A program made the translations under genes and the position numbers. Below the pieces are notes generated by a model. The model was given only the letters and a program-made list of their open reading frames with translations. It searched no databases and was not told the DNA's origin. This document shows, one piece after another, positions 35,427-40,890 of a DNA stretch of 40,890 nt (positions are counted from its first letter, which is position 1; each line of letters starts with the position of its first letter). This stretch comes from Campylobacterales bacterium (GTDB lineage: Bacteria > Campylobacterota > Campylobacteria > Campylobacterales > JAOZPA01): NCBI GenBank assembly GCA_029932985.1, contig JAOZPA010000004.1, positions 1-40,890 of the forward strand, read 5' to 3'.

Positions 35427-36590
35427 ATGAAAAAAGTTATAAGATTTTCGCTAATAGCGATTTTGGCTACAAATGTTTATGCAAACTGGGATGATTTTTT
35501 AAAAGGTTCGGGGACTGAAGATGCAGTTCTGCACGATGATGGAAAAATTTATGATTCAGGGGTACTTTATAATGCAAAAGTGAGTTACCAATTTACAGTT
35601 TTTGATAATAACCAGCATCACGACGACAATGATAGAGTTTGGATTAAAATTGAGGGAGATGGAGTGACTATTGAAACTCCTAGAGATGGTTTAACCAAAG
35701 ATGAGTTAACCGACTGGGGAAAAGCAAATGCCGATGCCCTTATGAAAGCTATTTATGGTGGTGACCCAACTGCCACAATGTCTGGTCAATCCACCTCATC
35801 CTCATCTGCCGCAACAAAAAGCCGAAACTTAGGTATGATAAGCTCACTTAGCAACAATTTTTCATCCAAAGTTTTGATGAATAGTGAATCTGCAACTATC
35901 AAAAACAAAGGTGAAAGTGGTGATGCAAGTTCTGGAGTTTTAAACTACTCCTATGATTTTACAAATGGCGACAAATTAGGTTTTTTGACCACTTACCGAT
36001 ATACAAAAATCAATGACCACTGGGGTTCAAAATCTGGAAATCTCTCACTCATCCCATTTTACACCATAAATAGTATCATAAATAGTCAGCTCGACATTGC
36101 AACCACAATCAACTTAATCGGAAGTGCGGTATATTTGGAATCCTCAATTTTCCCAGATGGTGGCGGATATTTAGAATACGGTGCAGGGGCTGGAGTTATG
36201 CCTACATACAAAATCACCGAAAATTTTTGGCTAAATACAAGCTTGGCATATCAATACAGCAAAAAATATATCCCAAGCTCAAAAGTCCCTGAAGATTTAG
36301 AATTCGTCGCAGATGCCATCAATAATCTTGAACCTATGCAAACAATAAATTATGGAATCGGGGCAAAATATCACTTTACAAAACAATGGAGAGCTAGTGC
36401 CGATGTCCTACAAATTATGCAATTAGCAAGAGAGGATTTAGAGGAGGGGCGAGACAAAGCCACCTATTATATGGCACAAACTCAATATGATTTATACAGC
36501 TGGACTTTGGGTTTAGGATATAAAATCGTAAGAGATGTCGCAGATTACGAAGAGGACTCATATATGTTCACTTGTAAATATAATTGGTAG
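35427..36590 (+). CDS. Secreted / outer-membrane beta-barrel-like protein of unknown function
   Basis: Signal peptide MKKVIRFSLIAILATNVYA; Ser/Thr-rich linker; aromatic-alternating C-terminal half ending YMFTCKYNW; strong RBS TTGGAGG. Confidence 0.7.
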   Translation: MKKVIRFSLIAILATNVYANWDDFLKGSGTEDAVLHDDGKIYDSGVLYNAKVSYQFTVFDNNQHHDDNDRVWIKIEGDGVTIETPRDGLTKDELTDWGKANADALMKAIYGGDPTATMSGQSTSSSSAATKSRNLGMISSLSNNFSSKVLMNSESATIKNKGESGDASSGVLNYSYDFTNGDKLGFLTTYRYTKINDHWGSKSGNLSLIPFYTINSIINSQLDIATTINLIGSAVYLESSIFPDGGGYLEYGAGAGVMPTYKITENFWLNTSLAYQYSKKYIPSSKVPEDLEFVADAINNLEPMQTINYGIGAKYHFTKQWRASADVLQIMQLAREDLEEGRDKATYYMAQTQYDLYSWTLGLGYKIVRDVADYEEDSYMFTCKYNW

Positions 36591-37483: not shown

Positions 37484-37933
37484 ATGAAAAGAATAATTAT
37501 GCTTTGTTTGCTGTTTGGATTTGAATTAGCTATTGCTAGTTCAGTTAATAGTTTTAATAACTTTCAAGCAAATATGATAGATAATATTAAAGCTAAAAAT
37601 TCTGATATAAAGCAAGGTTCGATAGAGATTAAACATTCTACATTAGGAGATGTTGACAATAAGCAATTAAATGTAATTCGTGATGTTATTGTCAGTAATT
37701 CAGTTATTTCGCAGGGGGCTTTTGAGATTAAAGATTCTGACCTAAAAAATATTGAAAATAAGATGAAGAATGTGATTGAAAATAGTAAATTTTATAATTC
37801 GACTGTTTTCCAAGGGAAAGTTAAAGTTAGTAAGTCAAAACTGAGTAATTTTAAGAATAAGCAAAAATCTATTATTAGAAATGCAAATATTAGAAACTCA
37901 ACAATATCACAAGGTGTGATAACAATTAAATAA
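37484..37933 (+). CDS. Secreted repeat protein A, candidate curlin-like / functional-amyloid subunit
   Basis: Start at ATG 37484 after GGAG; signal peptide MKRIIMLCLLFGFELAIAS; four ~33-aa repeats (NKQxNVIxxxxxxNSxIxQGxxxIKxSxL). Confidence 0.6.
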   Translation: MKRIIMLCLLFGFELAIASSVNSFNNFQANMIDNIKAKNSDIKQGSIEIKHSTLGDVDNKQLNVIRDVIVSNSVISQGAFEIKDSDLKNIENKMKNVIENSKFYNSTVFQGKVKVSKSKLSNFKNKQKSIIRNANIRNSTISQGVITIK

Positions 37934-37943
37934 GGTGTTTATT

Positions 37944-38324
37944 ATGAAGAAAATTATTATTTTATCAATGGTCGCAAGTTTAAGTCTTTTTGCTAGTTCA
38001 GTTAATAACTTTGCAAATGCACAAGAGAATAGAATAAATGGTTCCGATGTAGCAAATCATTCTACTTTAGCACAGGGAGCTACATCTGTTAGTGGTAATG
38101 CTGTGGTAAATAACTTTGCAAATGCGCAAGTAAATAAAGTTATTGGTTCTGAAGTTTTAAAGAAATCTAGCTTAACACAGGGTTCTACTTCTGTTGCTAA
38201 CTCTAGACTTACAAATTCTACAAACTTACAAAGTAATAAAGTAAAATATAGTAGTGTCCGAAATCATTCTGATGTATCACAAGGTTCTACAAATATCACA
38301 GATTGTGAGCAAGGCTGTGACTAG
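37944..38324 (+). CDS. Secreted repeat protein B, candidate curlin-like / functional-amyloid subunit
   Basis: Start at ATG 37944; signal peptide MKKIIILSMVASLSLFAS; three ~35-aa repeats (VNNFANAQxNKVxGSxVxxxSxLxQGxTSV); C-terminal CEQGC. Confidence 0.62.
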   Translation: MKKIIILSMVASLSLFASSVNNFANAQENRINGSDVANHSTLAQGATSVSGNAVVNNFANAQVNKVIGSEVLKKSSLTQGSTSVANSRLTNSTNLQSNKVKYSSVRNHSDVSQGSTNITDCEQGCD

Positions 38325-38384
38325 TTGAAACAAACTACAACAATTTTGACTTTACGAAATAGTTGTAATTAGTTCAGCTTATAT

Positions 38385-38421
38385 ATAGGATTGAAATTTT
38401 TTGAGTTTCAGTCCTATTTTT
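38385..38421 (+). terminator. Rho-independent terminator-like hairpin after repeat protein B
   Basis: ATAGGATTGAAA-tttttgag-TTTCAGTCCTAT followed by TTTT. Confidence 0.75.
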
Positions 38422-38434
38422 CAAAGGTTTAAAA

Positions 38435-38851
38435 ATGAAATCTATTTTAATACTATCTATAATATTTTCCTCTTTACTTATCTCATCTAATGAAAGCTAT
38501 GAAGCATCAAAAGTGAAACACTACTCAAAAAAAAATAATGGTTTAAGTAATGATGGTAAAACTATATATAGATATGTAGAGGGCAAACATACAGTAAAAA
38601 CAAATAACATATCTTTAGGAAGTGTTAAGCAAACAAATTTAAAAAAAGGTCTAACTGTAAATAGTACAATAGATGGGTTAGATGTATTTGGTAAACAAAA
38701 AATAAGTAAATATAAAACAAAAATACTTGAAAAAAGGGAAGAAAACTCCACTGTTAGTAGAATTGGTGAGGTCGATTTAACAAAAGATAAAAACAAAGAT
38801 GTAAAAGAGGTCAATATCTATTTAAAAAATGTACAAATAAGAGTTAAATAA
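38435..38851 (+). CDS. Small secreted protein of unknown function between repeat proteins and CsgG-like gene
   Basis: Signal peptide-like MKSILILSIIFSSLLISS; 138 aa; same strand, tightly placed in cluster. Confidence 0.65.
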   Translation: MKSILILSIIFSSLLISSNESYEASKVKHYSKKNNGLSNDGKTIYRYVEGKHTVKTNNISLGSVKQTNLKKGLTVNSTIDGLDVFGKQKISKYKTKILEKREENSTVSRIGEVDLTKDKNKDVKEVNIYLKNVQIRVK

Positions 38852-38915
38852 AAAAATTTATTTGATACCAATACAATAACTTCATATAATTTAAAAATCA
38901 CAAAGGTCTAAAGTA

Positions 38916-39944
38916 ATGAAAAATATTATTTTAATATTAATTGCATTGCTTTTAATTTCAGGATGTGGTTTCAAACAACCTAAAATAACTCAAAAAGAGA
39001 AAGAGTTTAAAAGTCCAATACAAAATAAAACATTTTTTACAGATGCTTTTGCTAAATTAGATAAATTAATGAAACTTTTTGAAGCTCCACGAATTAGAAT
39101 CCAAATAAAATCTATTGAAAATAGGACATCCTCCACAAAACTACCTTTCGATATAAGAAATTTTCTAGAAACACCTCTGATTTTATATATTTCAAGCTTT
39201 GATTTAGTGGCTTACGAACCTACTTTTAGAGAAAAAGAGATGGTTATGACAGGACAACGTTCCCAAGGAATTGAAAAATTTTTGCCAGGCTTGGTTATAA
39301 ATGGGGCAATTACCCAATATGATAAAGGGATTTACTCAACAAGAAAAGGTTTAAATACAGATGTAGAGGCGGGAAAAGGTCAAGGTTCTACTACTTTTAT
39401 GGGTGAACTTGATAATAGTGTAGCCCGTTCTCAAATCGCCATTGATTTAAAAGTCTATAAATATTATGATAGAACTTATCTTTTTGGAATTGCTACTCAA
39501 AATAAAATTGAACTACTAAAATATTCAAGAGATGGAAATTTTGGACTATTTCTAAATGGTACAGGTTTAGGCTTAAGTAAAGCTATCACTTTTGAACACA
39601 CAGAAGACCAAGCCCTTAGAATTTTATCAGAATACAGTGTACTTCAACTTCTAGGTAGGCTTTACGCTCTCCCCTACTGGAAATGTACAAAACCAAATCT
39701 ACAAATAGACAACTTCGTAGTCGAAGGAGAGTTAAAAGAATATACTAATTTTAGCATAAAAAAGAAGATAAACAAATTGGAAATTATCCTTAGTGCTTAT
39801 AAAATGACCTCTTTTAAAAAAGATGGAAATATAGATAATCAAGAACTTAAAGAGATAAAAGAAAAATTTAATGTAGAAGATAATGAAATCTTAAGCCCTG
39901 AATTCTATAAAACTCTCTTCATCAATGCACCTTTTTTTAACTAG
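38916..39944 (+). CDS. CsgG/HfaB-like outer-membrane lipoprotein
   Basis: Lipobox LLISGC; FLPGLVINGAITQYDKG ... ARSQIAIDLKVYKYYDRTYLFGIATQNKIELLKY ... EDQALRILSEYSVLQLLGRLYALPYWKC follows the CsgG pattern (G.I..Y, Q.A..LR.V....G.V..S......I.SYE, and C-terminal A.E....YL.). Confidence 0.6.
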   Translation: MKNIILILIALLLISGCGFKQPKITQKEKEFKSPIQNKTFFTDAFAKLDKLMKLFEAPRIRIQIKSIENRTSSTKLPFDIRNFLETPLILYISSFDLVAYEPTFREKEMVMTGQRSQGIEKFLPGLVINGAITQYDKGIYSTRKGLNTDVEAGKGQGSTTFMGELDNSVARSQIAIDLKVYKYYDRTYLFGIATQNKIELLKYSRDGNFGLFLNGTGLGLSKAITFEHTEDQALRILSEYSVLQLLGRLYALPYWKCTKPNLQIDNFVVEGELKEYTNFSIKKKINKLEIILSAYKMTSFKKDGNIDNQELKEIKEKFNVEDNEILSPEFYKTLFINAPFFN

Positions 39945-40216
39945 GCTTATCTTTTAATCTAAAAAATTTTAAAAGTTTGAGATAAATATATTTCCTCCTT
40001 TTTTTTTCCACTATACCATATCTCTTAATATCATCCTCTTCCTAGAATTACCAAAGCCTAAAGCTTTAATCTCTTATTTTTCAATTATTATCTTTTTTTA
40101 TAAATGTTACTAACTAAAACAATCATTAAAACAATATTAAAAACAGAAAGATTAAATATGTTTTTAACTCTTATTTAACTATAATGTTTTTAATATTTGT
40201 TAAAAGGAGATTATAA

Positions 40217-40890
40217 TGAGAAGTATAAAAAAATCAGTTTGTTCTATTTTTTTAACTACAATTTCAATTCTAATGCTTACTGGTTGTGGAGATGATAGCT
40301 CAAATAATGTAGCGGTAGAAGAGGTATCGCAAGAGGAAGTATTAATAGAGAAAAAAGAGATAGTGGGTTATATATATGATAGTGCGGTTGAAGGAATTGA
40401 ATATCGGTGTGGGAAAATTATTGGATTCACTCAAAATAATGGTAAATTTGAGTGTTCATCTCTTCCTTTGACTTTCTATATTGGTAAAATAAATTTAGGT
40501 TCAATTAATAAAATAACAGAGGATAAACTCATATTTCCACAAGATATTGTGGGGGTTCATAGAAAAAATATAAGGGATAAAGAGGTTGTCAGAATTGCTT
40601 TGCTTTTACAATCTTTGGATAAAGACACTAATCCAGAGAATGGAATTGAAATTAGCAAAGATACAAGTGAGAGATTTACTGAAAATATTATTTTAAAAGA
40701 TATTACTTTAGAAAATTTAAAAGTTAAAATAAAATTAATGAATAATCAAATTGTTTTTAAAACTGAAGATGAAGTAATCGCTCATTTGGCTATGAATGTT
40801 GGAGTAAATCCTGATGAAATAATAAAAATTCCTGTAATTAATAATGAAATAGTGATTCCAGTAGTTGAAACTAATGAAACAGTGATTCCA
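40217..40890 (+). CDS. Lipoprotein, truncated by window end (candidate surface protein entering a repeat)
   Basis: ATG 40217 after AAAGGAG; lipobox ILMLTGC; open to the window end: GYIYDSAVEGIEYRCGKIIGFTQNNGKFECSS...IVGVHRKN...VVRIALLLQSLDKDTNPENGIEIS; absent from the ORF track because no stop lies in the window. Confidence 0.75.

Follow-up and report, generated by a model that had tools for sequence, protein, structure and literature searches.

A candidate compact CsgG-type export and assembly cassette with non-curlin repeat proteins in Campylobacterales

Curli use a CsgG pore, and by similarity such pores are also known from the anchor of the holdfast. The Hfa plan consists of a pore plus small secreted proteins (PMC6707917), and ladders of Asn and Gln have been described for curli (PMC10192328) and for FapC, in which each repeat makes up one layer (PMC12392863). 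The Epsilonproteobacteria go unmentioned in a published survey of curli (PMC3521004), and a full-text search of open-access papers turned up no description of such a system in this phylum. Here we analyse a window of 40,890 nucleotides, by which we mean the whole stretch of DNA from positions 1 to 40,890 of contig JAOZPA010000004.1 of a Campylobacterales bacterium (numbered C144; the draft genome comprises 2.43 Mb in 210 contigs and is 97.67% complete). Four of its genes would, on the reading that we favour with some reservation, form a compact CsgG-type export and assembly cassette for a surface fibre or coat.

The four genes, A to D, lie in a row on the plus strand at 37484-39944 in the list of open reading frames. 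Gene A (37484..37933) begins with the ATG at 37484, has a GGAG upstream and encodes a secreted repeat protein of 149 aa, a signal peptide followed by four 33-aa repeats. Ten nucleotides behind its stop, gene B (37944..38324) encodes a second such protein of 126 aa, with a signal peptide, three repeats of 34-35 aa and a short tail. A gap of 110 nt separates B from gene C (38435..38851), which encodes a secreted protein of 138 aa, and another of 64 nt separates C from gene D (38916..39944), which encodes a lipoprotein of 342 aa. Signal peptides and lipobox were judged by inspection: A, B and C carry signal peptides, a cut behind LAIA being plausible for A and one behind SLFA for B, whereas D carries the lipobox LISGC with Gly at +2, as in lipoproteins of the outer-membrane type. 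The earlier note had described four consecutive plus-strand genes with export signals in a Campylobacterota-like genome, and both statements hold, the source genome belonging to Campylobacterales; among the sampled relatives, all of the same order, it has no near relative. About 900 nt upstream of A the window encodes a putative outer-membrane beta-barrel protein of 387 aa (35427-36590), which has a weak match to OMP_b-brl below cut-off and no counterpart seen beside D in other loci. Downstream, the start of another lipoprotein gene (40216-40890), with no Pfam match, runs off the contig end.

The repeats of A and B start right behind the signal peptide. Self-comparison of A peaks at a lag of 33 (0.378) and that of B at lags of 35 and 34 (0.284 and 0.213), and the top self-match of either protein was equalled by 0 of 2000 shuffles, in line with the two proteins of ~33-35-aa N/Q/S repeats claimed earlier. 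When the seven repeats of A and B are aligned, eight columns are identical in at least six of them, the maximum in 2000 shuffles being one. The consensus reads S-x-[LV]-x-x-[FIV]-x-N-x-Q-x-N-x-[IV] ... N-S-x-[ILV]-x-Q-G-x-x-x-[IV], in which all seven repeats share N8, S23, Q27 and G28, Q10 and N12 each occur in 6/7, and columns 3, 14, 19, 25 and 32 are hydrophobic in all seven. In a beta strand, every second residue of N-x-Q-x-N-x-[IV] or of S-x-[ILV]-x-Q would point to the same side, a pattern reminiscent of the Asn/Gln ladders of curli and FapC, and from these Asn/Gln/Ser columns, which recur once per repeat, we infer that A and B may form a beta-sheet fibre. AlphaFold gave no informative model of B (pLDDT 37, short strands only), so the proposed layers are drawn from the sequence pattern by itself. 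Behind its last repeat B ends in DCEQGCD, and the two Cys of this tail could cap or cross-link a polymer; mature A has no Cys. Since full-length alignments of the repeat proteins fell out of register, a three-repeat alignment was used instead; the A7 profile gave weak matches elsewhere in the genomes (E 0.003-0.06). Neither Pfam nor NCBIfam has a family above cut-off for any of the tested subunits or C proteins, from the window or from other loci.

D by itself matches neither PF03783 nor any other Pfam CsgG model, and as Pfam, NCBIfam and PDB sequence searches with it alone yielded nothing useful, family profiles were needed. Six of 15 D homologues match PF03783 at E < 0.01, the D paralogue C9 of the same genome scores, with its neighbours, above the PF03783 cut-off, and the D family profile matches E. 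coli CsgG over the body of the protein (probability 91%, E 1e-6), while two control proteins from the window matched CsgG in the signal peptide only or nowhere. An AlphaFold model of D (four sequences) reached moderate confidence (pTM 0.67, pLDDT 63); in a Foldseek search of the PDB its best 25 matches are all CsgG (top E 1.4e-6, probability 1.00), FlgT coming after at 4.7e-3, and the PelC and GNA1162 folds likewise match more weakly than CsgG. The TM-scores are modest (0.27-0.35 by query length). The least confident stretches of the model coincide with the position of the two membrane hairpins of CsgG. These hairpins make sense only within an oligomer, and the low-confidence stretches of D are consistent with a pore, which is not proof of one. 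The HfaB model NF037935 does not match the window D and matches 4/15 homologues weakly (best 5.7e-4), far below its 300-bit cut-off. As profile and fold match CsgG and the HfaB scores fall so far short, we place D, from sequence profiles and a predicted structure, in a separate branch of the CsgG/HfaB superfamily. The earlier description of a CsgG-like lipoprotein is thus upheld by family profile and fold, whereas a direct Pfam match is absent. The earlier note would have given up its reading had D shown no CsgG fold, and such a fold is predicted. The idea that D has a shortened form of the CsgG constriction loop was abandoned, as two alignments disagree.

The C-terminal module of D (39684..39941, plus strand), which forms four helices in the model, appears to be peptidoglycan-binding-like: PF01471 (PG_binding_1) is found in the C-terminal extension of some D homologues (best 2.1e-5; Azospirillum 0.0015). 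The source genome has several CsgG-type lipoproteins, as it encodes two further D paralogues (L012:8412-9506 on G000:C9 and L013:9063-10898 on G000:C101), one with a 164-aa secreted protein upstream and one itself a 611-aa protein, together with a separate PF03783 protein (L001:1252-2271 on G000:C161).

Protein C had been taken for an orphan, which it is not: homologues lie directly upstream of D in the related loci L083 and L087, and a profile of C and these two counterparts also finds L089 (3.9e-6) and L043 (2.7e-4, Sulfurimonas), small secreted proteins beside D. C is probably an accessory protein, an anchor or a nucleator. Between B and C lies a hairpin of 15 pairs followed by a T run (38385..38421, plus strand), a possible attenuator or terminator, and the region 38322-38434 folds with a z of -5.7. 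A scan for consensus terminators passed over this hairpin because its stem is A+T-rich. Hairpins directly after the repeat gene, with z from -1.9 to -5.4, are present at seven further loci, giving 8/8 loci tested, and a clean T run is missing from some of them. Since the hairpin sequences differ between loci, it looks as though a design is shared, with subunits made in excess of the pore, and not an element.

With the family profile, the D family was found in 14/400 sampled relatives, own genome included, from 10 genera; an earlier class-wide sample, searched with a smaller D profile, overlaps this one. A search of genome contigs with a 4-row alignment gave three loci, and a search of viral contigs gave no related locus. 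The closest D proteins (G430, G516 and G522) come from one genus of another family, that of G430 (L037) being 46% identical to the window D. In L083 (G516) and L087 (G522), two or three large repeat proteins of 259-581 aa come first, followed in turn by a hairpin gap, a C homologue and D. With the A/B-repeat profile, the first of the repeat proteins of L087 is matched at 4.9e-9, and the motif S-x-h-x-Q is over-represented in the L083 and L087 subunits with a spacing of mostly 33-38 aa, which is less regular in two of the five proteins. In other families, different repeats lie upstream of D, with periods of 34 (L015, L017), 32 (L018, L040), 31 (L085), 29 (L086) and 36 (L088). Altogether a periodic protein precedes D in at least 10 loci (p <= 0.02, 9/10 at the shuffle floor; as a control, 2/41 window genes passed p 0.005), so that the recurrence of repeat proteins next to D in other genera, on which the earlier note had made its reading depend, was found. 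The repeat proteins of L015 and L017 (the same loci as L041 and L042) are not detected by the A/B-repeat profile; what links them to A and B is their position, the period of 34 aa and a profile match that is in register but weak (P 0.0014, probability 18%).

Not every D homologue is preceded by a repeat protein: L013, L038, L084 and L090 have none, so that lipoproteins of the D type may serve other purposes or have a second use; at L012, L039, L089, L043 and L082 the small secreted neighbours are less periodic. At L038:5710-8888, L084:6452-9609 and L082:5581-7158, where repeat subunits are not recognisable, the D homologue has a caspase-like protein and a lipoprotein resembling DUF4384 as neighbours, or is fused to DUF4384 (Azospirillum plasmid). 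Right after D in five loci, and absent beside the window D, is an NMT1_3/TAXI-type periplasmic substrate-binding-like protein (L018:8555-9748, with 3.5e-7, L086:2079-3284, L085:6912-8111, L010:211-1419 and L009:2592-3611). At L019:5639-7944 and L039:6192-8715, two D paralogues stand in tandem, and a secreted protein of ankyrin-repeat-like type lies between them or at their side.

Is the locus curli? Searches of the whole draft genome for CsgE and CsgF gave nothing at E up to 10, and curlin repeats (PF07012) are absent from A and B and nowhere over cut-off in the draft genome or in 13 related genomes, the E. coli controls scoring over cut-off in both cases. The repeats of A and B are non-canonical, as the earlier note had it, with no PF07012 match, a period of 33-35 aa and no profile similarity to CsgA (hhalign probability 0.5%), and its failure to recognise CsgE and CsgF extends to the whole draft genome. 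Lacking curlin repeats, CsgE and CsgF, the locus does not belong to the Csg system in its defined sense, and the wording curli-like locus falls to that extent, whereas a curli-like way of working is compatible with these results. A canonical curli operon that is merely divergent, which could appeal to the CsgG fold and to two repeat subunits like CsgA and CsgB, is for these reasons highly improbable, its repeats being 33-35 aa long against about 23.

Two rivals are serious. A and B might be a non-amyloid beta-helical coat or adhesin that D exports, made of closed solenoids without cross-beta elongation, and it is true that repeats elsewhere resemble a generic beta-helix (e.g. IKTGKNSRAEIGSLNVKKS in L041) and that the prediction for B, at very low confidence, offers nothing beyond short strands. 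Yet Asn/Gln/Ser columns once per repeat are typical of the curli and FapC amyloids (PMC10192328, PMC12392863), and Q and G are invariant in 7/7 repeats; we regard such a coat as possible though unlikely. The other rival, modelled on HfaB, HfaA and HfaD of the Caulobacter holdfast, would make an anchor of D, C and the repeat proteins, one that holds a polysaccharide or some other appendage at the outer membrane without long protein fibres. A pore with small secreted proteins is indeed the Hfa plan (PMC6707917), four of the D homologues have the weak HfaB matches given above, and a Wzc-like polysaccharide tyrosine-kinase gene adjoins D in L015 and L017. However, all HfaB scores are far below cut-off, no holdfast genes were seen in the window, and the large multi-repeat subunits of L083 (259-581 aa) suggest a structural polymer; we regard an anchor of this kind as unlikely. 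If D exported nothing and were a scaffold lipoprotein from the wider CsgG/FlgT/PelC superfamily, lying beside unrelated surface proteins, this would agree with the weaker FlgT, PelC and GNA1162 matches and with the homologues that adjoin DUF4384 and caspase-like genes and no repeat protein. Such a scaffold is improbable, as CsgG comes first by three orders of magnitude in E-value, segments matching the CsgG membrane hairpins are present in length, and repeat genes recur beside D in many genera.

Based on these comparisons we propose that the cassette probably works like a CsgG export system; by the tests run it is not a curli or holdfast operon. A, B and C would enter the periplasm by Sec, and D, a lipidated outer-membrane oligomer of the CsgG fold, would probably be tied to peptidoglycan by its C-terminal module. 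Unfolded A, B and C would cross through the D ring, and outside the cell, at its surface, the 33-35-aa repeats of A and B might each fold as one beta layer, the stacked N-x-Q-x-N and S-x-[ILV]-x-Q-G strands giving Asn/Gln/Ser ladders. Layers stacking within and between subunits would build the fibre or coat, and the polymer would be anchored or nucleated by C, whose gene neighbours that of the pore. The hairpin behind the subunit genes would lead to A and B being made in excess of C and D. If true, Campylobacterales of different genera use a CsgG-type pore for unrelated subunits in the absence of CsgE and CsgF, which bears on the needs of a minimal export machine and on its choice of cargo. 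These bacteria would then also have a system for adhesion or biofilms that has so far not been looked for.

The likeness to curli lies in a pore lipoprotein of the CsgG fold and in small Sec-exported repeat proteins with regular Gln, Asn and Ser. The cassette differs in its repeats of 33-35 aa, as against about 23 aa with an N-x5-Q motif in curlin, in lacking CsgE, CsgF, CsgC and CsgD alongside, with no chaperone or gate (CsgE) found in the draft genome, and in the extra C-terminal module of D. With the HfaABD proteins of the Caulobacter holdfast it shares a CsgG-related lipoprotein and small secreted partners, and it departs from them in its weak HfaB scores and in that no holdfast genes were seen in the window; in NCBIfam, no HfaA or HfaD family is among the matches of A, B, C or their counterparts. 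The Fap system (FapC/FapB) resembles it in having few, long, imperfect repeats with conserved Asn and Gln, but here the pore is CsgG-like and not FapF, the subunits of the two systems share no family match, and family searches gave no Fap-named family for A, B, C, D or the upstream barrel protein. The cassette is probably a new form of CsgG-type secretion that spans several genera, and its A and B repeats match no known family. We further suggest, as a proposal that could nearly as well prove right as wrong, that it represents a class of CsgG-dependent surface polymers of Campylobacterales, with non-curlin one-layer repeats of ~34 aa, a partner C and a PG-binding-like module on the pore in a setting free of CsgE and CsgF, which would be the third family of CsgG-pore substrates beside curlin and the Hfa proteins.
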